Shown: piece after piece, positions 11,901-35,019 of the stretch | How the letters are laid out: each line of letters starts with the position of its first letter | Position numbering within the stretch: position 1 is the first letter of the stretch | From: Perkinsus olseni | Lineage: Eukaryota > Perkinsozoa > Perkinsida > Perkinsidae | Assembly: GCA_013115135.1 (NCBI GenBank) | Contig: JABANP010000261.1 | Span: 1 to 64,000 of the forward strand | Direction: 5' to 3' | DNA length: 64,000 bases | Translations under genes and position numbers: made by a program | Notes under the pieces: generated by a model | Told to the model about the DNA's origin: nothing | Seen by the model: the letters and a program-made list of their open reading frames with translations, nothing else | The model's database searches: none

Positions 11901-14900
11901 CAGAAGGTTTTCAACAGAGGCAGTGATGCAGTGATTAATTCACTATGTATGTCGCTCACTACTAGTGAGTCTATACTATCTTGAAGGGGTTCTGCACAGG
12001 CTGGCGCTCCACAGACTTCATCATCACAATCTTAAACCACAGCTACCCGGTGCTGGCCTTCAAAATTGTGAACGGAGATTGGGTCGGCCGAGAGCAAGAA
12101 TCAAGGAATCCTTGAGGAGGATGTGTATTTTTGTCTTATATGCACGCTAGATATTTAAGTATGAGTATCTTTCGGATAGATCAATTAGCGATGGCTGGTC
12201 CTCTGAACCCACAAGCTAGTGGTCTATCCTACCACGAGGGAGCTGATGCAGTTTATCCGGCCCGGACAGTACCAGCAACTGATAAGTGACATGGAGACCT
12301 TTTAAGGTTCGTTAGCTACCTTGATATAGCAAAAGCTTAAGGCCGAAGTCAGCCTCGAGTGAGTGCCCCGGCGGGCCCAGCTGTGCGATGCTACTGTACT
12401 TTTTATACGTTATATCGGATATTTGTATACAGTGTTCTCGTTGCGAAGTATACTCGAAGTCAATGTCTACGCTCCGCTGCTGCGGTGAGTCATTTTTCCA
12501 ATTTTGATCAGGCTCTCAGTAAGAGCCTTATATTCATAGTAATCGAACTACGAATTGAACATCACTCGACTAAGGTCATTCCGGTACTTTTCTACCTAGG
12601 TTCTGGACTCGACTGGCGAGCCTGTTAATTGGGAGGCTTTGTACGACGAGGCAGCAGCAGCTATGGCTCATGCTGAAGAGATCACAGAGGAGCAGGAGCA
12701 GATGAACCGCGAAGAGAATGCTGGCATTTTTGGTGAGCTGGTGGCGGGTTAGCGTTGGGGACTGGCTGATGATTCAGGGCCGATGGATGATGTGTGGCAG
12801 CAGCTGCAACAGGAAGGCTGGTTACAGCAGGATGGTTGGACAAGCGCGAGAGATACGTATGAGTTCAATACGGAAAACCCGTAATTAAGGGGGTGAACTA
12901 GACCAACTTGGCGGGTAGATAGCATTTTACTGGACGCTGGTGGGAGGCATTGAGGGGTGGTGTCTTGAAAAGAATGATCGTTGGCTTGGGCGCTCTTCCA
13001 TGGCTTGTGAAAGTTGAAAGTTCATGTATGATTTTCCTCGTAGCCCGCATCGTAGATGTTGTGAAATTCACTGTGAAAACGTCGGCAGCGGTGTTGAGCG
13101 TTTGAGGCATGTTAGCTGTGTGGTTGTATTGTCAGGTATTTGGAATCTTCCGAGTCACCATTGCAGTTGGCGATGAGGTTGTTGGCGGAGGGGAAGGACA
13201 AGGAGGCTATGCTTGCACTAGAGGCGGAGGTAGGCGCGGTAGCATAGAGACCCTGGTGAGGTGGGTCGGTAGGTCCAACAGCATCCGGACTCCTCGGAAG
13301 GGTGGCGGCTGCTGGGGTTGATGCATGCAGCAAACGATATGGATGTGGAAGCGATAGTGAGAGGAGGGCTGGAGGGGTCGCAGTGGTGGTGAATTGGGTG
13401 TTTGCAGACGTGCCTGGAACGAGGTCATGAGGCGGACCCTTACAATACGGACAGCTTGCTGGCACTTGGAGTGTCTCTCACCAACGAGTTGGACTCATAT
13501 AGGGCGTTGAAAATCCTACGGTAAGTTGCTCGAGGCAGTGGCGCCTGGACGAATGCAGAGTTTTACATCGACATCGTGTCCGAGTGGTTAAGGAGTTGGA
13601 CTTGAAATCCAATGGGCTCAGCCCGCGCAGGTTCGAATCCTGCCGATGTCGTTTTCTCTGCATTTTTCATCTCGCTTCTTCGTTGGCAGTGAGTGGCTCC
13701 AGAACCACGAAGCATATCACGGACTCGTCGAAGCTAGCACTGCAAACCCCCAGATGCTACTGGACTACGACTTCTTGAAAAAAGACGTAGCCAGTTCGTA
13801 GTCAGACGCCCCTTCCATCCGGTGCCCTCCGATCAGGTTGTCTCGCTCTTGGAGAGGGCGGCCGATAGCCGACCGCAAGACGCCGATGTTTTCGTAGCAC
13901 TCGGAGTAGCTTATAATATCGATAGGAGCTACGGCAGGGCGGCGGAGAGCTTCATAACAGCGGCTACATTGCGGCCGGAGGACCCGACTCTGTAAGTGGA
14001 CCGTGCGGCAGTTGGATGCTCACTGTTGAAGTCTGGGAGCAGGTGGAACAAGCTTGGCGCAACCTTGGCAAACTCGGGGCTGTCTGAAGCGTCACTTGTG
14101 GCATATAATCAGGTTAGACTTGGGTGGTTGAGAGGATGGTGATGAGGTTCTCGGGGGAGTTGTCTCGCCGCTCGCTCGGTTGGACGGAGGTTGTCGGCTA
14201 GTCGAAGTGGTTACGGCGCCGCTGTCTATCGAATACTTGAGCATGAGGGATTCGTTCTCACAGTAGTCGAACTAGTGTAATTCTTTTCGGAGTGCTCAGA
14301 TATTGAACTATGGTTTTACTTTGTTATCATGACTTCTGTCTCGTTGGCGCAGGCCTTGAAGTTGAAGCCGAACTACGCTCGTGCATGGTCCAACCTAACG
14401 ATAGCTCACTGCAACTTGAATCAGCATCAGGATGGGATAAGGTAGGGGTATGGTTGATCAAGAGTCGTGCAGGCTGGGGTTGTCGAGCAGGTTTTACTTG
14501 GCGGCGCTGAAGTTGAGTCCAAAGGCTGAGCATCTGTGGACGCTGTTGTTCAATGCGGTAAGGCGCAGGTTCGATTCCCGGCAGGGACGTTTTAAACAGC
14601 AATTTATTAAGCTCGTTCTTTACACAGGTCGCTGCGTGGGCTCCTGAGCGGGACGAGCTGGGCGACATGGTGGACCGTCGCGACATGGACCGCCTGAGTG
14701 CAGCAGTTGGGGGAGGGGTAGTAAAGCTCGGGTTATGTCACTTTAATTTAGTTGGTTCGCTGGCCGAGCTATGATCAATCGTACTGTGAAGATAACCGTT
14801 TCTTAGACTCACACGACGTACCTTGTCGATGATCATCTCTGCCGTCCACAGGTACCGGACGTTGAGAACCTTCCCTCTCCCGAGCGCAGTCTCCCGCAGT

Positions 14901-14962
14901 CGGTAGGAGAAGTGGTGGCTTCGCTGAGAGCGCAGATGAGGAGACCGCAGAACGAGGGCTGA
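8958..14962 (+). CDS. PEX5: Peroxisomal targeting signal 1 receptor PEX5
   Basis: PEX5 binds PTS1 proteins in the cytosol through C-terminal TPRs and delivers them to the peroxisomal docking complex. Exons: 8958-9087 (GRNPLKSFTDSM, the family's N-terminal GANPL region), 9545-9682, about 10012-10278 (NWAQEF, a WxxxF docking motif), 10554-10776, 11304-11395 (FANSQFVDFVDQIVKGD, matching ANSxFxxFVxQI), 12600-12732 (WEALYDEA), 12778-12880, 13136-13229, 13282-13356, 13408-13520, 13690-13786, 13837-13991, 14043-14112 (WNKLGATLANSG, a TPR hallmark), 14353-14441, 14491-14557, 14628-14717 and 14852-14962. Phases agree throughout except at the second/third exon join. The family motif YxFxxxNPY is rebuilt across the 12880/13136 splice. 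The first exon has no Cys, although most PEX5 proteins have a conserved N-terminal Cys used for recycling. One intron holds a tRNA-Ser gene and another a tRNA 3'-half relic. Confidence 0.95.
13570..13651 (+). tRNA. tRNA-Ser(TGA), inside a PEX5 intron
   Basis: 82 nt with a fully paired acceptor stem (GACATCG with CGATGTC), discriminator G, A box GTGTCCGAGTGG, anticodon loop containing TGA, a long variable arm and B box GGTTCGAATCC. TTTT follows at once, a pol III terminator. It lies in sense orientation within the 169-nt PEX5 intron 13521-13689. That intron is flanked by CTACG|GTAAGT and TTGGCAG|T, and the protein reads ILREWLQN across it. Nested but intact. Confidence 0.96.
14560..14589 (+). 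pseudogene. tRNA 3'-half relic forming a PEX5 intron
   Basis: Intron 14558-14627 (70 nt) begins GTAAGGCGCAGGTTCGATTC and continues CCGGCAGGGACG then TTTT. That is a variable loop, T-arm with B box, 7-nt acceptor strand, discriminator and T-run, as at the 3' end of a tRNA gene. No 5' half is present: the upstream bases are PEX5 codons (LWTLLFNA). Confidence 0.6.
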
Positions 14963-15686
14963 GGATAATTTCGTGGCGCGTGACGGTGATCAGCTGCTGA
15001 CTTATTGAGTGACGATGATGGTAGTTGTGAAATTTTATTAATAATGTTTCTCCTTAAACCGCGTTGGGTTCTAGCGCGATAAATTCGCGATTTTCTGTCG
15101 GACACGGGATGGGAATAATTCTCTGAGAGAATTTCTCTTCTTCAGAAATGACAAGACCGATTGAAGTCTTTCACAAGGTTCGACATTATTCGGAATTTGT
15201 TGGATTATCAAACTTTTTCTCAGATCAGAACGGTCGTCACTGACCGCTGAATGGTTTTCGGGCGAGCAATAATTCCGGCCACAAAAATATCTTTTTTGCG
15301 TGTGCATATTTAACTTGGCGAAAACGCCACTTCTCAAATTACGGGTGAAACTCCTCAAATATATGCGCAAGATGGGAAACTCCCAGCCGTTCGTACGCGG
15401 AGCATTGGGAAGAGAGCTCGTGCTGTGAATCGATGACCGGACAGGAGGCAAGCTTACCAGCTTTGGTATCGATCCGCGAGGAGAAGGTCCTTCCCACGCC
15501 CGTTATGTGGTAGTTATAACTTCATATTGAGTAGAAATATTGCGACATCATTTTGTCGCTGATGAATAATTTACCCACTCGCGGCTTCTTTTTCACGCGG
15601 CGCCGAAGTTCGCCTGTGTGGCGCCTGAAGGAGATTTTCCTCTTGCCAGGAGGCGCGTGTTCATCAGTTGTTGTTCACCTCTTCAA
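14963..15686. repeat. Intergenic region with two dispersed repeats
   Basis: No gene supported. 14967-14988 (AATTTCGTGGCGCGTGACGG...) repeats the sequence at 1835. 15320-15353 (AAAACGCCACTTC...ACGGGTGAAACTC) repeats 934-967. The Sec20 start follows at 15687. Confidence 0.6.
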
Positions 15687-17164
15687 ATGGCGGAGTCAGC
15701 AGCAGCAGCATCAGCAGCAGCAGGAAGGGAGCGGCTGTTTGGTTCGACCTCCTCCTCGTCGACGACTGCCAAGTCCACCACTGAGGGGCGCTCGAGTAGT
15801 AGTAGAGCGGCGGGGAGGGTGATGAGGAGATCAGTCCAGCAGATGAGGGAGAATGTTGAGGTATGCAGGGATGCTCGTGGCGTGTGTCAAGTTTAACGTC
15901 GAGTGATTTCGTTGACATTTCCCGCGCTTGGAGACTCTCTTGGCAATTGGTGAGAATTGAGCGCATCAGTGACGAGGTGGCATTGAAGCTGAAGAAAGTG
16001 TATATAGCGGTGTCTGCCTCTGAAGTTGTTCTCACACCAGCAGTGGAGCTATTGAAGTGGCAGCTACCGGTACTACCGGACCGTACCCACAATCGACCGC
16101 CTCCAAGAAGGTCGGCAGAGTGTTTTCAGTCCAACGCTGAACACCGGTTTAGACCGACTAGCAGCGATGTATTTTAGTCGTAGTATTTCCCCAGTTGAAG
16201 TTGTGTAGTTTCTTCTAAGTTGATCATAGAGAGGACTGGGTTTGGCGCTATGAATATTTTATATTACTATTATTAAATATTATAAATTAGAAATGCCAGC
16301 AATATTATGTACTCCTCTGAGAATCGAGTTTTCTGGTGAGCACTAGGTCTTCGTGACGAAAGTTCGAATCCCACGGGCGTCACTTTGAGCGCACTTATTT
16401 TGTGGTGGCTTTTCGGTGGTAGTTGGGGAGGTGCCGAAATGAATAGAAAAAGGTTTCCGCGAGATCTTCGGACGGTGAATTTGTAATGAGTACTATAAGC
16501 GAGGAGTCGTTGAGATAAATCGCAACGAGTGATATACGAACGAAGCTATCGGTGAGTGAGGGAATATTCTGCCCTTCGCCATTAGTTGCTATTGGCGACT
16601 CGGAGGAGACGTTGGCGCAATTCTGATTGAAAAAGTGTATAATGAGGTTGTGGTGAGTAACCAGTGCACGAATATCCTGGAGTCGTTAGGACATCTCCAT
16701 TGAGTTGAAATCATTAGATATCATACTTTCTATTATTAGAAATCAGATCAAGTAAATCGTGTTTTCAAATTGCTGGAGAAGTTTGAGAATCTTTTCTTCA
16801 CTCTCAGCGCATGCGAGTTACCGAAGATACGCTGACCGATTCCAGCGGGAAGATCAGGGATGTTAATGACGAGTACGCCAACAACTACTCCGGAGCGTTG
16901 AAGACGGCAAGTGAAGCGATGACCAGTCTGAAGAGAAGAATCGATGCGGATGACAAATTCATCTGGTGGTCATTTATTTTCTTTATGCTGGTATGTGTGT
17001 TTATCATTCTGAAACGGCTGATGATTTTCTCCCTTTCCGCGTGGCTGTTTCGGATCGTCGCCAAGCCGATTTCTGCCGGTTATCAAACCATTGTCCAGCC
17101 TGCCCTTCGTTCGTTCAGCGGTTATGATAATTTCACTGATTTGCCGGGCGTTGAGGAGTTGTAA
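15687..17164 (+). CDS. SEC20: Sec20/BNIP1-type ER SNARE
   Basis: Two exons: 15687-15860 (58 codons, ends GAG|GTATGC) and 16808-17164 (after CTCTCAG), giving 176 residues. Exon 1 is Ala/Ser-rich and then helical (RRSVQQMRENVE). Exon 2 continues RMRVTEDTLTDSSGKIRDVN, the Sec20 SNARE core, followed by a membrane segment (FIWWSFIFFMLVCVFIILKR) and a short lumenal tail of about 45 residues. Sec20 is the Qb-SNARE for retrograde Golgi-to-ER fusion, anchored in the ER membrane by this C-terminal segment. The family's usual longer N-terminal part, which binds the Dsl1 complex, seems much reduced. The 947-nt intron contains exon-like stretches and a tRNA-like relic. Alternative exons there cannot be excluded. 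Confidence 0.84.
16341..16383 (+). pseudogene. tRNA 3'-half-like relic in the SEC20 intron
   Basis: AGTTCGAATCC preceded by GTCTTCGTGACGAA and followed by CACGGGCGTCACTTT looks like a T-arm, acceptor strand and short T-run. The segment starts near a donor-like GTGAGC at 16336, but this is not the donor of the intron modelled here. The pairing is weak. Confidence 0.38.
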
Positions 17165-17499
17165 AATTACTTCATCTCGGAGCGGTGTTGCTTGGTTAAC
17201 TTCAATCTTGGGGGACTAGAGCATGATGGTTTGCTCTGCTTTTTGGTTCTCTCTTTTCCGCCTGATTTTTTGAGAGAATTTTAGCATCTCTTAGCTGCAG
17301 GCCTGTGTGTTTGGCAGCGCGATCCCAGTAGCGAATCACGATCGTTGACCTCGGAGAATCTTTTTTGTGAAGCCGGGGGAAATTCAGCGTTCGGTGCTTT
17401 AATCTGGTATTTGACCCCCGTCGTAAAGGGCTTTGGGGAGCAACCCTTCTTCTTATCGGACCGAGACAGGGTATATCTTGAGTGGGAACGGAGTTCGAC
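17165..17499. other. Short intergenic region
   Basis: No gene or clear motif between the SEC20 stop and the next start codon. Confidence 0.4.
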
Positions 17500-18716
17500 A
17501 TGTTCGGAGTGGCAGATGGTAAATTCAGCTACAACAACCTTGACGACCAACCAAACGAAGAAGAGGTATGGAAGCCTTGAGAATGCAGGCTAGCGAGCTG
17601 TTGATGAAGTTTCACTCGAATGATAGCTTGAGGAATCTTTAAATCTTCGCTGTGCGCAGAGATGCATCTTTGTTGTTGTTATCTCAAGCCCCTTAGACCA
17701 TGACAGACTCTGCAAGGTTGAAGATTCTTGTGACGGCTTCTTCGGAGCTCTTGGGGCGAATGGTGCTCCACAGTCTAGCGAAGTAGGAATCCGAGGTCGA
17801 AGCGGACAACTCACAAGTCTTGAAGATTCCCCGCAGCACGAAGCTTATTTTTGCCACTTCCTTAGAATCCTCGTGAACGGTTTTGAGGGAGAATAGCAGA
17901 GGAAGCATTTTGCTTTGGCATGGTAGAGCAATTTTCCCAAACGAATTTATTTTTTCCGATTTTCTTCTTTTTCCGGAATTTAACGTCGTTTGAATTTAAA
18001 TCAATCATATTCTACCATAATGGCATAACAGTCACCGTGGAGAATTTTCTAAGGTAGCGGCCACCTCAAAAACGCATCTTAGGTCGACCCATGGTGGATA
18101 CGAGTGAGCTCAATGTCAGGCAACATCCAAGTTCTGTCATTTTCTTATTCGTCGAGTCCGGGAGCGGAAGACTGCTACATCGTTGACGGGAATTTTGGTA
18201 CGGAAAAAACTGAAAGCAGGCCACCAAGCGCTCCAAAGATCAACAAAATTTATGCTGATGCAGGTAGAGCGTTGAGGAATTGTAAGAGAGGGCAAGATTA
18301 GCAAGATTCAGGTCCTTTTCCTGCTGATATTAATGCTGTCGTGTACTGCAATAGCAATAGTACTCCTGAACAGGTGGCCAAGTAGTAGTAGCCCGACTCG
18401 CCCTGCCCTGCGCGCGTATCTTTCTTTCTTCGAGGTTCTTCGATCGATGCATATCACAGCTGCCTGGGCTGAGTATCTTTGTTTATGCTAGTTCGATTTA
18501 TGTGAACTGGGGTGCAGGAGGGCGTAGTGGTGGAGAAGATACTAGCATGGTGAGCTTGGATGCTTCGAGGTTTGGTTGCATTTGCTGGGGCGTAGTGAAC
18601 TGTCATAGTTCACTTCATAGTTCAACTATGAATTGGTAGAAAGATGGTATTACTGATTGTTCTTGTCACGGTTGTTTGATTGAAGCTTTCCGTATACATC
18701 GTGCTGTACATGGTAA
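17500..18716 (+). CDS. Unrecognised small multi-exon gene
   Basis: A phase-consistent chain: 17500-17565 (MFGVADGKFSYNNLDDQPNE, ends GTATGG), 18083-18263 (after CTTAG; VLSFSYSSSPGAEDCYIVDG), 18312-18389 or so (after TTCAG; PFPADINAVVYCNSNSTPEQ, ends GTGGCC), 18518-18549 (after TGCAG; EGVVVEKILA, ends GTGAGC), then a short last exon after GAAG near 18685. That last exon would end in a Cys-rich tail at TAA about 18716. A rival reading of the third and last blocks gives hydrophobic helices (VLFLLILMLSCTAIAIVLL) instead, but breaks phase. No family is recognised. A 71-codon minus-strand ORF in the first intron (17693-17908) is the only competitor there. Confidence 0.36.
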
Positions 18717-20018
18717 AATCGCCACGTCTCTCAGCACAAAGGGCGCCGCCAGTTGTCACGTCAATATTACACAATACTGCTCCTCAAAAATTCCTGCAGT
18801 CGCCAGCTGCTGCGGTCTTCGTCAGGAAGCAAAATTGCAGGGTCCTCGTCCTTGCTTCGACACAGTTGTTGAGCTCCTGACGGGTCACGGTCGTGGTGAA
18901 TTTTTTTCCCGTGATTCTCCGAGATAGTGGAGCCGTGGATCCACTGGTAAACACTTCCTTACGAGGTAGACTTTGCGTAAATCAGTTGTGATTCTATAGG
19001 GCTATAACGAGTAGGTCATCGTGTGTTCTAAGGATGATACGCCATGGGGGTGCTCGATCACAGCGAAGAGAGTGTTGTTGATAGGCGTTCGAGCTTCTGC
19101 CGACTGCGGAACGTCCGAGGGCCTCATCGATGGCGGCGAGGCTGACTGGAAGCTCACGGAAGAGATGGCCGAGCAAGAGTATATATCTTAAAGTAGGGGG
19201 GTATCTTTATTGCGCTGGAACCTATAATAGGGGTTTTCGTGAATTGCCAGGGTCAACCTAAGATACGACTAACTACACAGTCACTAAATAATAATTGCTA
19301 CCCTCATCGCGAATGGGTTTGTCTAAACCAAATTGCTTCCGTTTGTTTCCTTCTCCTCTTCGTCCTCCGCCGTCACGTCGGCAGCATCATCGTCATCAGA
19401 AAGCAATGCTTCTCCTCGACGTCGATCGATCCAGTGGGGATTCCCTCTCAGTTACTGCTGTGAGCAAGCTCTGGCGAGACGCTGGCTGCAGAATGAGCGG
19501 TCCTGTCGACTGGTGAGAGTTGCGTGCCTCCATGAGATTATCCTGTATTCATCGATAGTAGTTTTGTAGACTCATTAGAAGTTATTTATTCGGGTTTTTT
19601 TCGGTGGACAATCACCGTTATAAAAATGGCATTTTTGTGATAACTCGCTCACTTTGGAAAGTTACTCCACCGCTCTCGGTAGACGTCGAGTAACAGCGTA
19701 AAACTCTCGGAGTAGAAGCTTCATAGATGTCTATTCTATTATCAAATTTTCACTCGAGACACGGTTCACTTTGCCAGCATTCCAATGCTAATAAAGCAAA
19801 CACGGCAGTATACGGGAGTGCTTGAGAGCGTTAGGGCGGACTATCAACTTCGTGCCCGTTGTCTGTCGCGATTGAACACAGCGTTGCTTTGTGTGCCTCG
19901 TGTTCAAAACACAAAGTGTGCTCTTGAGTTCAACGCCGTAGACCGGCTTAGTCAGACTAGCACCGAGGGGATGAGTTCAAGCTAGTTCGACTATCATATT
20001 GTGCTCGTTATCGTGACA
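18717..20018. other. Intergenic region without a supported gene
   Basis: About 1.3 kb upstream of GNPAT. It has only short ORFs in mutually exclusive frames, one pair of which (19239-19569) derives from Ser/Arg-rich low-complexity sequence. I see no RNA gene. Confidence 0.45.
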
Positions 20019-23000
20019 ATGGACTTCGTTTCATACCAAAATTTCTCTCAGGCATTCGTTAGACTGGGGCTGCTCACCCCGCCAGCATGTTCAACTCTAT
20101 CGAGAGCGTTCAGTGCTGTGGCGGAGCGAGTGATGGTGCCGGAAGCGCGCGCCCTGGCCAGGGCGAGGGTTGGCAAATCCGCGAGTGATTTGATGACGAT
20201 TTCGCTGTTGCCGACTTTGGACGGTCGGAAGACCGATCCGAAAGCGGTGATTCTCATCACACCGGCTGATCTGGCTGCTCGAGCTGTCCTCAGTGCCGCT
20301 GTCGAAGGAGTACGAGGCAGCGCTGAGGTACGCATGGTCGCGGGTTCGAACCCCGGTGACTTCCGTTCTCTGCCTTTTTAGATTACTGAAAGCCCGCAAG
20401 TATATGCTCTGGCATTGGCCTCGCCCATGCTGCAGTGGGACAAATTACGTTGTCTGATAATCGATCATTCGGGCGGGCGCGTATCTGCCGCTGATGGCCG
20501 CGGTACCGGCGCTGTTCTGCGCCGGGCTCCCCCTCCCCATGAGGTAACGCTGGGCCGACTTGCCGTCAAATTAGAAATTTCGTGCGGAAGAAAATTCCAG
20601 AAAATTCTAGAATTTTTTTTCTGGAAATTCGGAGCTGACGCGAAGGATCTTTCAATGAGACTATCGCCACGACACCTTGGGTGATCCCTAAGCCCCTCTC
20701 GATCAGGTTTGCAGCGCCACGCTGGAGCGAATCGATCCCGAGGTCTGCGCAGACGTCCGCGGCCTGCATATTCATAACTATCTCACTCACTGTCTTGGAC
20801 TGATTGAAAATGGCGGAGCGGAGTTTTTGGATGTTCGCCCGCCCACCGGAAGAAGTCTGACGATGCAGCAGCCGCTGCGCTATACTGATGTTTTATCGGA
20901 TGCAAAATGGCAGCACGGCGGAGTACTCAATTTTGTGAGTTGTAAATAATTTCGTGGCGCGCGGTAATTTTTTTCCTGCTGTGACAGGCGCTGCGGAAGG
21001 AAGCCTTGTCGTATTACATGCCTAGCATGGAGCGTGTGAGATCGTTGGTGATGAACTCGAGGGCTGTTAGGGAAGCAACTCACAGCAAGAAGTTGAAGGG
21101 GGAGGCGGAGGCCATGCTGGTGAGGCGGAATTATGGAATTTTCGAGCGCATTGGAATGAGTGTTTCGCGCGGTTAGGTGGGCCTGTGAATATCGGGAAAT
21201 ATGGTATGATTTGATGAAATTATTTATTCTGAGCAATAATTCGGAGTTTGGCGACGGAAAGAGAGGAACCTCGTTGATGCTCTCTTCAACGTTTATACTG
21301 TTTCTCCTGAGACGAATGAGGGAAGCGAAAGGATATCAAGTTTTTGTCCTGGAAAATAGTAGAATTTTTCATAAATTATTAAAATTATTCAATAAATTAG
21401 ATTATTTTTTGGCATCACAGAGACGAACTGACTGCCGTCCGGTCGATGTCATTATATCAAATCGCGGTGTTTCAGGACCGTATTATGGGCAACCAGCGAA
21501 GCGACGTGCTCAGGGGTTCGTCATAGTCCTTCATCGTGTTTTCACTTCTATTTATGATCGAGTACTTGTCAATCATGATGGTCTTGGGAAGCTGAAGGAG
21601 TAGGTCCCCGGTTCGAATCACCCTCGGGGCATTTTGCTTTCACAGATTGAACCAGCGTGGTGCAAAGATTCTTCTACTACCGACACATAGGAGCTACATT
21701 GACTTCCTAGTGCTCAGCTACATCTGCTACTAGTAAGAACGCACAGTGTGGCCAAATAGTGAGTGATACCTGGCGCGGGTTAGGAGCGACGGCATGCCTT
21801 CTAGATTGTGTGGCAGTATTGTTGTTTTTCTATGGTCTCTCATGTTGTACAGGCCCCGTTTTGTACTAGTGAGTTCGAACTCCGCGATGAGCCTCAGATT
21901 TAGCGGCCAATCGGGAGTTGATTGCCTTTGATGTTTCAGTGCCGACATTCGGCTGCCTTTTATCGCTACTGGGGACAACTTCTTTTCTATTGCGGGGATC
22001 TGGAAGATATTACAGCATTCTGGTAAGAAATGGTTTGAAAAGTTCCGATGCGGGGACTCGAACCCCGGTCGCGTGGGTGAGAGCCACGAATCCTAACCAG
22101 CTAGACTACATCGGAGGATGCATGTGAGGATCTTCCACCCGCCCTGCTCCAATATAGGTGCCTTCTTCATGAAACGCTCCTTCAACAGCGAGACTCACCC
22201 TCTGTACTCGATTGTCTTTAAGACCTACATGCAAGTCATACTCGATGAACAAGGTGAGGGAGGGTGTCCCATCCCCAATGGTTCCCCTCTGAGAGCGATA
22301 AAAGCAAAACTTCACGTGAGTTGTTTGGAGTATTCCGGATTTGTCCGGTCGCCCGTTATAGCCTTTCCTGATTCTGTTTTCGAAGCCATGGAGTGCGTGG
22401 CTGGCATGGAACGGTCAGAAATTTTCGTACGAAATCACTGAGAGATGGCAAGTAGCCGTTGGCAGCGGGCCTCACTTTGTCAGGATGCGTCGAGATGTTC
22501 ATAGAAGGAGCTCGGTCGAGAAGCGGCACGATGATACGCCCGCCCAAGGTTGGGCTCTTGAGGTTCGCCACTGAGCCAGCGGTCCAGACCGCGATGAACG
22601 CGAGTTCGGCTTCTGATTTCACGGGTAGGAACTCAGTCTTCGCGGGAGAAGTCGGCTAGAACGGTCGAAGAGGTTGAATCTCTTCCTCCGATTGATAAGC
22701 AACGACTCAGTTGTAGATGAGAATAACAACCGTGTAGTTTCGAATCACCAAGGAGCCCGACCCGATTCCGATCACAGGATTTAGGCTTTCTATAGAGCGC
22801 TCCCGTTCAACCCGGATTCATTGTGTGGAATGCCGTCCTAGTGTCCTCGAAAGGGGGATGAATTCACCGAGCTCAGCCAGTAGTGTTCCGATCAGATGAA
22901 GATGAGGTTTTCCTCGTACCGATTTCTATCGGATATTCCCGAGTGATGGAAGTCGATTCCCTCGCCACCGAGCTGGAGGGTCGAGCCAAAGTCGCCGAGA

Positions 23001-25621
23001 GCCTCGCGAGGACGGTCTCGTAGGCGCCGACACGCCATCGCGGCGGTTGCAGGTCTCCTCTGGCAGAGCCTTGCGCTACTTGTCTATGAACTTCGGAACA
23101 CTGACGGTCCATATCGACCCCGAGCCGATCAAGGTCAGCGACGTTGTCAAGCGGTGGATGAGCGAACAGAAAGGTGGGCAGCCACTTGCTATCTTACTCC
23201 CACTTGCAACTTCCTCAACTCTGTAGTCATCGACAGGTGACTATTCCCCTTCCCCTGTTCCTCCGAAGTCCCCTCGATACGCCACGCCCTATCAGCAGCT
23301 CGCAGAGGAAGTGGCTGATCGTTTGGACGCCAACATGCCCATCCACACCACCCATCTGATGAGGGCTCGCCGGAGGGTTGTGGGTCGCTGCCCGGCGGAC
23401 GGTGGGAGGTTGAGCTCAGGTGGCGGCAATTTTGTTGTGGAAGCGACACGATTCGTCTTCCGCTGTGAGCCACGCTATGATGGTGGACAAGGTGAGGTGG
23501 TTGTCATCTTTGTTGAGAAGACGTGGCTTGACGGTCATACTGGATGACAACAATGTAAGCGGTCCCGGGTTCGATTCTCCCCGATGGTATTTTGCTGGAT
23601 CGCCTTCAGACTTCCTCGGCCGTTTCACGTGTGGCTTCCCTTTACGTCGATCATGTTGTGATCTCCGCGCCGGAAGAAGAGACTGGCGAAGTGAAGTAAG
23701 TCTGATCGGGTCACTAGCCTTCTGTTTTTCGCTTATTAACAGACGAAGAGCCAGTCATCATGAAGGAACATTATCTTCTCATTAACTATTACTCATAGAA
23801 GACCTAGCGCGTCGCAGCGCGCTAGGACCCCCTGTCTAAACCAACACACAAGCTCGTCTATCGCCTAGGACTCATGCCGTCCTGCTACACCCTCAAACCA
23901 CATGAGTTGGTTCAAACCACCTTGTTGATGGTAGGACACACGTCACCCGGTTTCCGCTGACTAACAGACGAGAAAATTGTTCTCATGAAGGAAAATTATC
24001 TTTTTTGTATTTTCATACATTACTTGAAGAAAACATAGCGCGCGAAGATTCCCTTTTCAAACCAACACGAGGGGGACAGCAGCGCAGGTATCAAACAGGA
24101 TCAATTTAACCGTTCAGCAACGCGTCAACCACACGATGGTTGGCCGAAGACACGTTAATAGGTTGTCGACCTCTGGGAGGAGGAACTACGAAGATTCTCG
24201 CATGATCTCGACTGCTCCGTGCAATTGTATCTGCAGAAAGCATTCCGATAATGACTCGAACTACTGCTGTTCGCACCACTTCGCCATTTCCTCGGGATCG
24301 TATTCTCTTCTTGACGAAGAGGACATCGTGTAACTTTGCCTCTCAGTCGAGGAGGTAAATATGGTTCAGTCCTGCCCTATGAGACTTGACATGTGACGAT
24401 CTGTTTGACGTATGCGTGCACAATGTCTCGTCGCGTGCGCGCCTCACCTCTGCGTCTCGCGATCCACCCGCGCAGTTTAGCTACCACCGAACAAATGGCT
24501 CCATTCTCGAGCGTTTTCCCGGTCTCTCATAGTCTCTATAAACTTGAACCCTCGATAAAGATGGATTAGACTCTCTCCGACTCGCGGCGAGTCACTCGCC
24601 CCTCAGGTATTCCGTGTGCCCGGCCAACCCGTTGTTCGCCACTCTCTTGCTAAGCTACTACCGCAATCAGCTCATCTATCATCTGGGTCATGAGGCCTGC
24701 CTGGTCCTCGCCGCCGGTGACTTGACGAAGCTCTCCTTCCTGCGAACAGAGATTCTCCTGGAATGCATCCCTGCTCAGCAGCAGCAAGTACCGGAGGGTT
24801 GCGATCGAGAGTTGAACGATTTTGCCGTGTCCTTAATCGGGCCCGGTGGTCGAGTGTTGGTGGGTGGTGGCCTTGGCAGCTTGTACTTACCCTAGCCTCA
24901 CCACTACCGGCACGGACTTGGTCTCGAGAGCATCGGGGTTGGCGAAGGAGATGTATGAGGAAGGGAGATGTTCGTATTTGGAAGCTTGCTCCTTTGACTT
25001 CGCTAAGAAGGCTGTCAGAGGGATGGAAAAACGAGGGTAGGTGTTGCAATGAAAATCTGATATAGTTTTCCGCGCAAGGGATGGTACTCTGACAATTTCA
25101 TTCAAGCTGTGCTATTGTCGAGTAGGAAGCTCGGGTTGGCCGCTTTCGACGCACGACCGGTTGGTTACTCCGCGGAGAAGCGTCGTGGACTAGGTCCGTG
25201 GCGGACCTCTCGCCTAGAATGTCAGCGAGTGCTCGCGGGAATGCATACAAAGGGAATCGCCCGTTGAACAACAAGAGTCGGGGTTATCGTATTGGTCGAG
25301 GAAGTGGCTCATGACTTTGTCCCTTGCAGGTGCATAACGGTGAAGGGTAGGACCGTGCACATCACGGTCGAGAAGATGCATGAGCTTCTGGCTCTTCTTG
25401 AGTCGATCAAAGAGAGTATGCCGGGTCTGTGTCGTTCCAAAACTCGCCCGATTTCAGGTCCGGCCCTTCCTCAAGGTAAGGCCTTGTCCAACTCTTCGGA
25501 GGTCTCCTGTGGCGGGGTTGAGGAGAGGCAGCAACCCGCTCAGCGGGGGCTCTTCACACAACTACGTGACATGACGCTTGTCAAGCCTCTCGGCCGTTTA
25601 AACGGCACTTCGAGAATGTGA
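20019..25621 (+). CDS. GNPAT: Dihydroxyacetone-phosphate acyltransferase (GNPAT)
   Basis: Acylates DHAP at sn-1, the first step of ether-lipid synthesis on the lumenal side of peroxisomes. Seventeen exons chain in consistent phase: 20019-20327, 20382-20543, 20707-20934, 20988-21119, 21514-21599, 21646-21732, 21940-22022, 22158-22253, 22484-22624, 22884-23014, 23053-23173, 23237-23376, 23420-23554, 23610-23695, 24607-about 24855, 24896-25036 and 25330-25621, about 872 residues. Acyltransferase motifs: LLLPTHRSYIDFLVLSYICY (HX4D), LPFIATGDNF, GAFFMKRSF, and FIEGARSRSG (the family's EGTRSR). GNPAT-like features: LVPISIGYSRVM and LSMNFGTLTVHI. The last residues are TSRM; SRM fits the PTS1 consensus, so PEX5, encoded 5 kb upstream, could import it. 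The 5' start (ATG 20019) and the 24855/24896 junction are least certain. Four introns contain tRNA or tRNA-derived sequence. Confidence 0.94.
20328..20381 (+). pseudogene. tRNA 3'-half relic = GNPAT intron 1 (54 nt)
   Basis: The whole intron runs GTACGCATGGTCGCGGGTTC then GAACCCCGGTGACTTCC, ending TGCCTTTTTAG. TGGTC, GCGGG, TTCGAAC and CCCGG are a variable loop plus a T-arm with four of five pairs. TGACTTC and C follow as acceptor strand and discriminator. It is spliced between codons GAG and ATT. Confidence 0.58.
21600..21645 (+). pseudogene. tRNA 3'-half relic = 46-nt GNPAT intron
   Basis: The intron starts GTAGGTCCCCGGTTCGAATC, continues ACCCTCGGGGCA and ends TTTTGCTTTCACAG. AGGTC is a standard tRNA variable loop, CCCGG-TTCGAAT a T-arm, TCGGGGC-A an acceptor strand plus discriminator, and TTTT the expected terminator. 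The flanking exons code for the conserved GNPAT stretch LGKLKE|LNQRGAKILLLPTHRS, so both borders are fixed by protein conservation. Confidence 0.66.
22043..22115 (-). tRNA. tRNA-Glu(CTC), antisense inside a GNPAT intron
   Basis: 73 nt on the minus strand: acceptor TCCGATG pairs with CATCGGA, discriminator A, A box TAGTCTAGCTGG, anticodon loop with CTC, B box GGTTCGAGTCC, followed by TTTT. It fills more than half of the 135-nt GNPAT intron 22023-22157, which is bounded by TCTG|GTAAGA and ATATAG|GT. The protein reads LQHSG|AFFMKRSF across it. Confidence 0.96.
23555..23609 (+). pseudogene. tRNA 3'-half relic = 55-nt GNPAT intron
   Basis: The intron opens GTAAGCGGTCCCGGGTTCGA, goes on TTCTCCCCGATGGTA, then TTTTG and ends GCCTTCAG. 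CGGTC, CCGGG, TTCGATT, CTCCC, CGATGGT and A follow tRNA 3'-half order, with the T-stem partly unpaired. The flanking protein (LTVILDDNN|TSSAVSRVASLYVD) fits the family without a gap. Confidence 0.63.
23696..24606. repeat. Long GNPAT intron with an internal direct repeat
   Basis: This 911-nt intron lies between GTGAA|GTAAGT and CCCTCAG|GTATTC. It carries two diverged copies of a segment of about 90 nt: one from about 23740 (ACAGACGA..., CATGAAGGAACATTATCTT) and one from about 23964 (ACAGACGA..., CATGAAGGAAAATTATCTT). Both run into a TAGCGCG-containing stretch. It has an ORF of 65 codons at 24136-24333 with no support. Confidence 0.55.
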
Positions 25622-26916
25622 TGGTCGTCTGCTGATTGAGTTTGATGTTTCCCGAGAGACTCACTATTGGCGGCTGGTTTGTCCTTTTTTGTCATTATCA
25701 TAATCATCATCACTAGTTTCATAGGTTAGAACAGTGGCAGAGATCTCAGTAGCTGCTGTTGTGTTGATAGTGACACAAGTTGAGTGAATAGACGGGTGAA
25801 TAGACGAGGCCCGCTCAAGTTCAACTTGAAGTTGGGATGAGGAGGGGAGAGTCTTGGTTGTAAGATGCTTGTCGATCGCGGGCCACCGCCGCGGTGTGCA
25901 CGGCCTCGTGTCCGAATCTTCGAATGTTCGACCTTGTTCACAGTACCACTGTTGTCTGTACCTTTCGCGCGGCCAATCACTCAGAAGGCGCTACCCAACA
26001 GAGAATCAAAACCTCCGTGGAGGGGCAGCCTGAGCTACAAGACAGACACTGATGTACTCCACGCCTCACTGATATTTGACAGTAGTTGATGGTACGGTGT
26101 GGTGGATGTTAGCAGCTCCTACGGCCCTGCTGGCCCAATGGATAAGGCGCCCCCTCTCAAGGCGGAGGTTCTGCGATCGATCCCCGGGTAGGGTATTGAC
26201 CCAGAGTCAATTATAGTGCAAACTCATGTCGACAAAGAACTTTCCGACCGAGTTCTCGTCGAGCTGATTCAGAAGCAGCATCAGAATGAGTGATTCTCGT
26301 CCTCACCGGGACTCATGTGCCAATCCCGCTTTAAAGGACAGCCATGCGCATGCGTGCAAGAGTGTCCACGTCACCAACGGGGTGTTCATGTCCTCTTGAT
26401 GTCGGCGAGGACTTCTTAGCCCCGCCAGTCTCTCTTTCTCGTGGGTAGGACGAAACCCCAGACAGTCAGGGTGGCCAGCGGACTTTTCGAGTCCTGGGGA
26501 TGATGCCCGTAGTGTCGCATCGTGCCGGGAGATGTGGATGGGGAGATACGCACCGCCCATTGGATGCGTGAGCGGGCCCTGTTAGATGGAAAGGAAGCTT
26601 ATCAGTCTCAATAGACTCCTCGAGGGGAGCCCTTCCGCGAAGAACATGATAATCCCTTCATATAGATCTGTGCAAAAGTGCCCCCAGCGAATGAGCACTT
26701 GAGCGGAAGTCCGACCAAGTTGGTTGCGGTGTTGGACTGTGAACTCACTTACCTGGCAGCTCGACTCGTGGCTCGTGCGTTCGTTCGCTTCGCTTGCCTA
26801 GCAGTGGCGATTCGGCTAATATATTCAGTGGCGGGGCTTCAGGAGACAGCATGAGCAGGCTCAATGCTTCCTATGAAGGTAGCGCTTTTTTCAGGAGGAG
26901 CGTTGTTCTCCCTTCC
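25622..26916. other. Intergenic region before the LEA2-like array
   Basis: No coding gene seen apart from the tRNA-Arg relic listed separately. From about 26333 it carries the upstream flank shared by all three LEA2-like paralogues (CAGCCATGCGCATGCGTGCA). An in-frame ATG at 26851 exists, but the paralogues do not conserve it. Confidence 0.5.
26124..26195 (+). pseudogene. Degenerate tRNA-Arg copy
   Basis: 72 nt, near-identical in both ends to the intact tRNA-Arg(CCT) at 34947 (GCCCTGCTGGCCCAATGGAT; GATCCCCGGGTAGGGTA). It has a one-base loss and changes in the anticodon arm (loop CTCTCAA), and the B box is broken (CGATCGATCC for GGTTCGATCC). It is probably a dead duplicate. Confidence 0.8.
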
Positions 26917-34946: not shown

Positions 34947-35019
34947 GCCCTGCTGGCCCAATGGATAAGGCGCCACCCTCCTAAGGTGGAGATTCCGGGT
35001 TCGATCCCCGGGTAGGGTA
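34947..35019 (+). tRNA. tRNA-Arg(CCT)
   Basis: 73 nt: acceptor GCCCTGC pairs with GTAGGGT (two G-U), discriminator A, A box TGGCCCAATGG, anticodon stem CCACC/GGTGG closing loop CTCCTAA with anticodon CCT at 34980-34982, T-arm CCGGG/CCCGG, B box GGTTCGATCC. It lies between the LEA2-like array and the 3' end of SLX1. A decayed copy is at 26124. Confidence 0.96.

Follow-up and report, generated by a model that had tools for sequence, protein, structure and literature searches.

tRNA-like 3′ parts as a candidate source of very short introns in Perkinsus olseni

How new spliceosomal introns arise has long been asked, and of the systems known to produce them in mass, many are introners with DNA-transposon traits. 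tRNA-like sequences can also spread by copying, as in tRNA-derived short interspersed elements (SINEs), which carry a tRNA-like promoter sequence to many sites and keep a 5′ tRNA part and a body. Here we describe four predicted mini-introns of Perkinsus olseni that each contain a tRNA-like 3′ part, together with the genome-wide class of such parts. The four lie in a window of 64,000 nucleotides, positions 1–64,000 of contig JABANP010000261.1 (C181) in assembly GCA_013115135.1, which comprises 61.5 Mb in 968 contigs.

The closest described systems, as presented in the passages cited here, are introners: many short introns per genome that share sequence close to both splice sites and occur in either orientation (Gozashti et al. 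2022, PMC9860276). Introner families without target-site duplications (TSDs) or inverted repeats exist; TSDs are given for 49 of 130 and terminal inverted repeats for 72 of 177 scorable families (PMC9860276), and the main text of that study makes no mention of Perkinsus or tRNA. Introner elements of Amoebophrya have non-canonical splice sites and inverted and direct repeats (Farhat et al. 2021, PMC7789003); the term tRNA occurs twice in that text, the passage cited concerning aminoacyl-tRNA synthetases. In P. marinus, introns are described as 39–1622 bp long, mostly <100 bp (PMC3101222), and Dada DNA transposons, 4.7–11 kb in length, target tRNA genes (>500 copies of five tRNA gene types; PMC3706591). 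Among the matches listed by literature searches, with subscription journals mostly outside their scope, we found no report of tRNA-derived spliceosomal introns.

Four mini-introns in the window

The window holds a GNPAT/DHAPAT gene, three complete tRNA genes, and a gene that, following the label of a first-pass annotation, we take to be PEX5-like. That annotation, made from the sequence alone, had proposed four short introns in these genes that begin with GT fused to a tRNA-like 3′ half, and all four segments are present with GT and AG ends. Each starts with GT, continues through a variable-loop-like GGTC or a similar sequence, a B box and 12 further bases, and ends in AG. The 70-nt mini-intron of the PEX5-like gene (14558–14627, + strand, as are all four) reads GTAAGGC, T arm (B box at 14568–14577), an acceptor-like 7 nt, discriminator, TTTT, and a tail to CAG; its homologous intron in contig C219 also has a B box and T-run. 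Within GNPAT/DHAPAT, the 46-nt segment at 21600–21645 consists of GTAGGTC, T arm (B box at 21610–21619), 12 nt, TTTT, and a tail to CACAG, and the 55-nt segment at 23555–23609 has its B box at 23568–23577 and TTTT 12 nt later; both have the same sequence inside the intron in C219. The fourth, of 54 nt (20328–20381, B box at 20343–20352), lies in a region upstream of GNPAT/DHAPAT that is joined here to that gene. As the annotation had it, TTTT follows the 12 bases directly in three of the four segments, 20328–20381 being the exception. The C219 homologue of this segment has TTTTT exactly 12 nt past the B box, so the missing T-run looks like a later mutation.

The borders had been described as fixed by conserved protein sequence, which holds exactly for two of the segments. 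The P. marinus DHAPAT protein P0001 aligns unbroken across both 21600–21645 (GKLKE|LNQRG) and 23555–23609 (LDDNN|TSSAV). The other two are placed by their open frames. Splicing out 20328–20381 yields one open frame, whereas leaving it in ends the frame at an in-frame TAG; the automated P. olseni protein P0002 nevertheless continues into the intron, where it terminates, and the partial record P0003 ends at the intron border. For 14558–14627 the putative border is taken from the open frame and from the PEX5 C-terminus. The 14558, 21600, and 23555 segments would each shift the frame if left unspliced. A protein search with the spliced GNPAT region matched P. olseni proteins at 96–100% identity over the aligned parts, as well as P. 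marinus dihydroxyacetone phosphate acyltransferase. The GNPAT reading frame is broken near 21511; C219 differs there by one base, so the break is probably an assembly error in one of the two contigs.

Exact B boxes (GGTTCGANNC) are in excess in the window, with 12 matches over the two strands versus 2.3 expected, and none of 100 shuffles reached 12. A palindromic site contributes two of these matches, and three fall inside real tRNA genes. With one mismatch allowed, the window shows no excess (64 versus 59.5). The Rfam tRNA model at its gathering score matches the three complete tRNA genes of the window and none of the four segments.

A genome-wide class and its coupling to splice sites

The same arrangement recurs far beyond the window. 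The pattern GGTTCGANNC, 12 nt, and TTTT occurs at 998 exact sites in the 61.5 Mb, near-identical homologous contigs each being counted separately, versus 6 for the reversed pattern; with up to one mismatch, the counts are 2860 and 265. GGTC stands three bases ahead of the B box, the variable-loop position, at 331 of the 998 sites, where ≈4 would be expected at 1 in 256. When the distance from B box to T-run was left free from 7 to 17, the 72 distinct sites among the matches listed fell at 12 (40 sites), 11 (12), 13 (10), 14 (9), and 8 (1), so that in 71 of 72 the T-run lies 11–14 nt after the B box, where an RNA polymerase III (pol III) terminator would sit and where the annotation had placed it. 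P. olseni thus holds about a thousand exact, and more inexact, tRNA-like 3′ parts ending in a pol III terminator.

We studied 75 distinct exact sites, comprising loci L031–L060 and L067–L106 plus the window, taken in contig order and hence non-random. Six resemble complete tRNAs (L036 by eye and doubtful), and the other 69 are 3′ parts alone, a few of them SINE-like. A strict A-box pattern found no lone tRNA 5′ halves in 124 kb versus eight lone 3′ parts; its matches were a single tRNA gene and a decayed tRNA. Since the other two tRNA genes of the window escaped it, this absence is weak evidence. The 8-mers of acceptor plus discriminator are nearly all different, the commonest occurring three times among 133 elements.

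Both ends of the elements are coupled to splice-site sequence. CAG follows TTTT within 0–6 nt at 207 of the genome-wide sites versus 64 for GAC, a 3.2-fold difference, set against flanking-window backgrounds of 0.148 and 0.131; several of the GAC matches themselves follow AG. Upstream, AGGTR lies 1–12 nt before GGTC in 120 cases versus 33 for the reverse, RTGGA (3.6-fold, raw counts). Among the matches listed, 81 distinct cases have such a start, and with a 5-nt variable loop assumed, the G of GT falls 15–18 nt before the B box, at tRNA positions 34–37 in the anticodon loop, in 41 of them, versus the one third expected for a uniform spread of starts across the 12 distances allowed (p = 0.0014). 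In nine of the 81 it falls 11 nt before the B box (position 41, just ahead of the variable loop). A recurrent start, GTAATCGAAAGGTC, resembles the 3′ side of the anticodon loop. The unit therefore resembles a 3′ tRNA half: the variable loop that had been proposed as 5′ splice site, in the GTAGGTC form, is one of several versions, and the anticodon-loop start is commoner.

A combined donor, acceptor, and coding score, trained on nine motif-less GNPAT introns (one with the tRNA-Glu) and seven generic splice sites, reached at least 10 in 22 of the 75 elements versus 46 of 396 shifted windows (p = 2e-4), and at least 15 in eight of 75 versus five of 396, some of the control windows containing real introns. 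With the search limited to introns of ≤200 nt and to GT within 75 nt, 35 sense models were written out; they are 42–92 nt long, and in 30 of them a stretch of 9–36 nt separates GT from the B box that follows. A few (L032, L035, L037, and L097) look doubtful. The smallest plausible one, L053, has ≈35 of its 42 nt in the tRNA-like part. When 20 spliced peptides were compared with Pfam, five had an above-cut-off domain across the junction: GTP cyclohydrolase I, HATPase_c, dynein AAA_6, IF4E, and SYF2. These five introns, of 74, 53, 56, 53, and 50 nt, would each shift the frame if kept. Their GT precedes the B box by 9 nt at the least, then by 10, 17, 20, and 36 nt, and AG follows TTTT at a distance of 7–21 nt.

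Antisense copies are also predicted to form introns, in which the T-run is present as its complement close to the 5′ splice site. L088 lies in RRM-like sequence and L048 in a dynein-light-chain-like leucine-rich repeat (both names by eye); at L048 we favor, by eye, a donor 6 nt further downstream than the one scored. Other candidates are less sure. As modelled, the predicted introns share sequence reaching near both borders, in either orientation, as introners do. Openness of the reading frame by itself did not separate elements from control windows, and a home-made gene finder, which for this genome proved either too permissive or too strict, was dropped.

Origin of the mini-introns

We consider it probable that many very short predicted introns of P. 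olseni are tRNA-like 3′ pieces, truncated at the 5′ end, that were inserted into exons, and a good share of the tRNA-like 3′ parts are likely to be introner-like mini-introns, each from one insertion. This proposal draws on the tRNA spacing, the coupling to splice sites, the exact borders in conserved proteins, the occurrence in both orientations, and the absence of one intron from two paralogues described below; we infer that most of the intron's sequence comes from the inserted piece. A 5′-truncated tRNA-like piece would drop into an exon. A piece in sense orientation would bring its own GT, or have one formed, in the anticodon loop, the anticodon stem, or the variable loop; its T-run would act as polypyrimidine tract, with an AG a short distance beyond. 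A piece in antisense orientation would have its terminator, now read as the A-rich complement, close to the 5′ splice site and the end of its anticodon arm close to the 3′ splice site. In coding sequence, only insertions that splice immediately would survive. As to the route, our best guess is an RNA-mediated one, with reverse transcription of pol III transcripts or of 3′ tRNA halves, or else capture at breaks, since the 5′ truncation, the insertion in either orientation, and the terminator T-run would fit these.

Evidence from homologous copies bears on the age of the introns. With the joined flanks of 19 introns as queries, second copies were found in other contigs for eight introns (nine copies, flanks 93–100% identical where matched apart); besides L082, the other ten had no second copy reported. 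At the L082 site, the dynein paralogues L107 and L108 (80–81% identity) have no intron and the frame reads through. These two paralogues supply all of the empty-site evidence, which intron loss on their side may explain as well. A further homologous-copy search with 42 flanks gave 42 matches, all of them the query sites except the copy of L067 in C134 (40 of 57 candidates scored). Regions present in two or three contigs at 93–100% identity were seen in the sets C181/C219, C8/C134, C5/C226/C275, C7/C340, and C10/C658, as if haplotypes or subgenomes had been assembled apart.

Several results weigh against the insertion of tRNA-like pieces into exons. Counting the copy of 14558–14627 in C219 as the tenth, the intron is present in 10 of 10 extra copies of nine introns; with no empty allele among them, the sampled introns are not recent. 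Independent insertions must be fewer than the genome-wide counts, which include the near-identical contigs. As sense introns, 53 of the 75 elements score below 10, and the antisense group is not enriched (score at least 5 in 10 of 75 versus 57 of 388 control windows). The length and offset ranges of the models are partly built in by the restriction to short introns, and of the 20 spliced peptides 12 had no Pfam match and three had matches below the cut-off only. By-eye inspection of the modelled and homologous-copy junctions revealed no consistent TSD.

Base pairing in the T stem also weighs against a simple tRNA origin. The three variable base pairs of the T stem are present in 45, 60, and 54% of 91 solo elements (the 100 matches listed, without duplicates and without five complete tRNAs), versus 50, 62, and 51% with re-dealt 3′ sides; in 55 distinct complete tRNA sequences, partly closely related, they are present in 95–98%. 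T-arm hairpins in the elements show no energy excess (mean −6.89 versus −7.09 for shuffled halves), and mutual information across the T stem is null in 133 elements (z 0.0–1.4), with some same-side neighbors linked. Because pairing equals the shuffled level, the elements are not plain tRNA copies. The annotation's picture of a tRNA 3′ half thus stands in order and spacing and fails in T-stem pairing. Its proposal that insertion of a 3′ fragment makes an intron gains a genome-wide class with splice-site enrichment at both ends, set against this random pairing.

Either the pieces were stitched from two tRNAs, or unpaired positions drifted while the rest was kept. The same 3′ sides are found with differing 5′ triplets, the overall association being weak but non-zero (Mantel r 0.064, shuffled sd 0.028), and one anticodon-side module also occurs with several T-strand triplets; free variation may therefore account for these combinations instead of a mosaic at the T loop. 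A tentative extension, which we rate as possible but doubtful, is that U-tailed 3′ tRNA halves themselves are the intron-making unit, reverse-transcribed into exons without a dedicated transposon and sometimes with two tRNAs stitched at the T loop, giving hundreds to a thousand or more introns. Inverted chimeras formed via the palindromic B box were considered and rejected: the sole site matched among the loci examined, at window ≈96–138, is the SINE-like copy with no evident tail-to-tail pair.

tRNA genes or pieces could instead have landed in older introns, which then shrank and lost the tRNA 5′ half. We regard this as unlikely, although complete, conserved tRNA genes do sit in introns of both genes. 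The GNPAT intron at 22023–22157 (+) contains a complete antisense tRNA-Glu(CTC) gene (22042–22115, − strand) whose bases are the same in C219 while its flanks differ, and a probable PEX5 intron at 13521–13689 (+, borders by eye) contains a complete sense tRNA-Ser(TGA) gene (13569–13652, +) unchanged in C219, again with differing flanks; at L055, the T-run of a tRNA-Asn runs into the apparent intron end (by eye). However, once the tRNA-like part is set aside, modelled introns of 42–57 nt retain, by our reading, only ≈6–20 nt, too little for a working intron, and intron ends lie near element ends in sense and antisense alike. The intronless dynein paralogues speak against nesting as well, as does, weakly given the strict A-box pattern, the count of no lone 5′ halves against eight 3′ parts in 124 kb.

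That the motif is a selected linear sequence inside introns, such as a TFIIIC-type B-box binding site or a splicing signal, with no insertion involved, seems to us improbable. In its favor, the variable loop is conserved (the B box itself being required by the search), the T stem and acceptor are free to vary at their positions, the stem is unpaired, and there are few intermediate-score sites in the 124 kb. Across nine homologous copy pairs, fixed B-box bases changed in 0 of 72 versus 14 of 282 for other intron bases, a figure biased by the choice of exact B boxes that we do not use as proof of selection. The fixed distance to the T-run and the preceding A nevertheless fit a tRNA 3′ end, and a B-box site would need neither; the antisense examples speak against an RNA-level signal. 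Highly improbable, in our view, is that the introns are the 3′ ends of ordinary tRNA-derived SINEs. Loci L075, L084, L099, and L106 do carry a repeated tRNA-like element whose body is CTAGGCCTTCG...GGTTCGA...T-run, but most of the mini-introns inspected lack a common body beyond the ≈33-nt tRNA-like part (by eye), and the acceptor-plus-discriminator 8-mers almost all differ.

Other tRNA-related sequences were seen alongside. The repeated element, marked by CTAGG(C/T)CTTCG..ACGAA upstream of the B box and T-run, lies in the window at ≈96–190 (−) and 16330–16390 (+) as well as at the four loci just named, and looks like a family of SINEs or of degenerate tRNAs. At window 13553–13663, the tRNA-Ser gene lies, beyond its acceptor stem, between the arms of an inverted repeat (ATGCAGAG ... 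CTCTGCAT) whose left arm differs in C219. An apparent decayed copy of the tRNA-Arg(CCT) gene that is intact at 34947–35019 lies at 26130–26205 (+). Loci L001–L030 contain tandem tRNA gene clusters, for example in contigs C778, C823, and C607; among the loci examined, tRNA-Thr(TGT), tRNA-Arg(TCT), and tRNA-Arg(CCG) dominate.

Comparison with known systems

If true, tRNA would be a new and widely available source of introns, since tRNA transcripts that have a terminator T-run and loops containing GT are present in all eukaryotes. With a recognizable tRNA-like 3′ end kept in each copy, strain and species comparisons could put intron gain in Perkinsus to the test. Surveys for introns that are similar end to end could well miss such short, divergent copies.

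Relative to tRNA-derived SINEs, with their 5′ tRNA part and body, the P. olseni elements differ in consisting of the 3′ part alone. They are like the introners described by Gozashti et al. (2022) in sharing sequence near both splice sites and in occurring in either orientation. In the passages cited, introner families were found by BLAST similarity reaching both intron ends; here the shared part is a divergent tRNA-like 3′ end of ≈33 nt. The introner elements of Amoebophrya, as described in the part of Farhat et al. (2021) cited, are repeated introns too, in a parasitic dinoflagellate of the wider lineage of Perkinsus, and differ from the P. olseni elements in their non-canonical splice sites and their inverted and direct repeats. 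The Dada transposons, from the passages of PMC3706591 cited, show mobile elements active around tRNA genes within this genus; there the transposon goes into tRNA genes, whereas in P. olseni tRNA pieces would go into exons.
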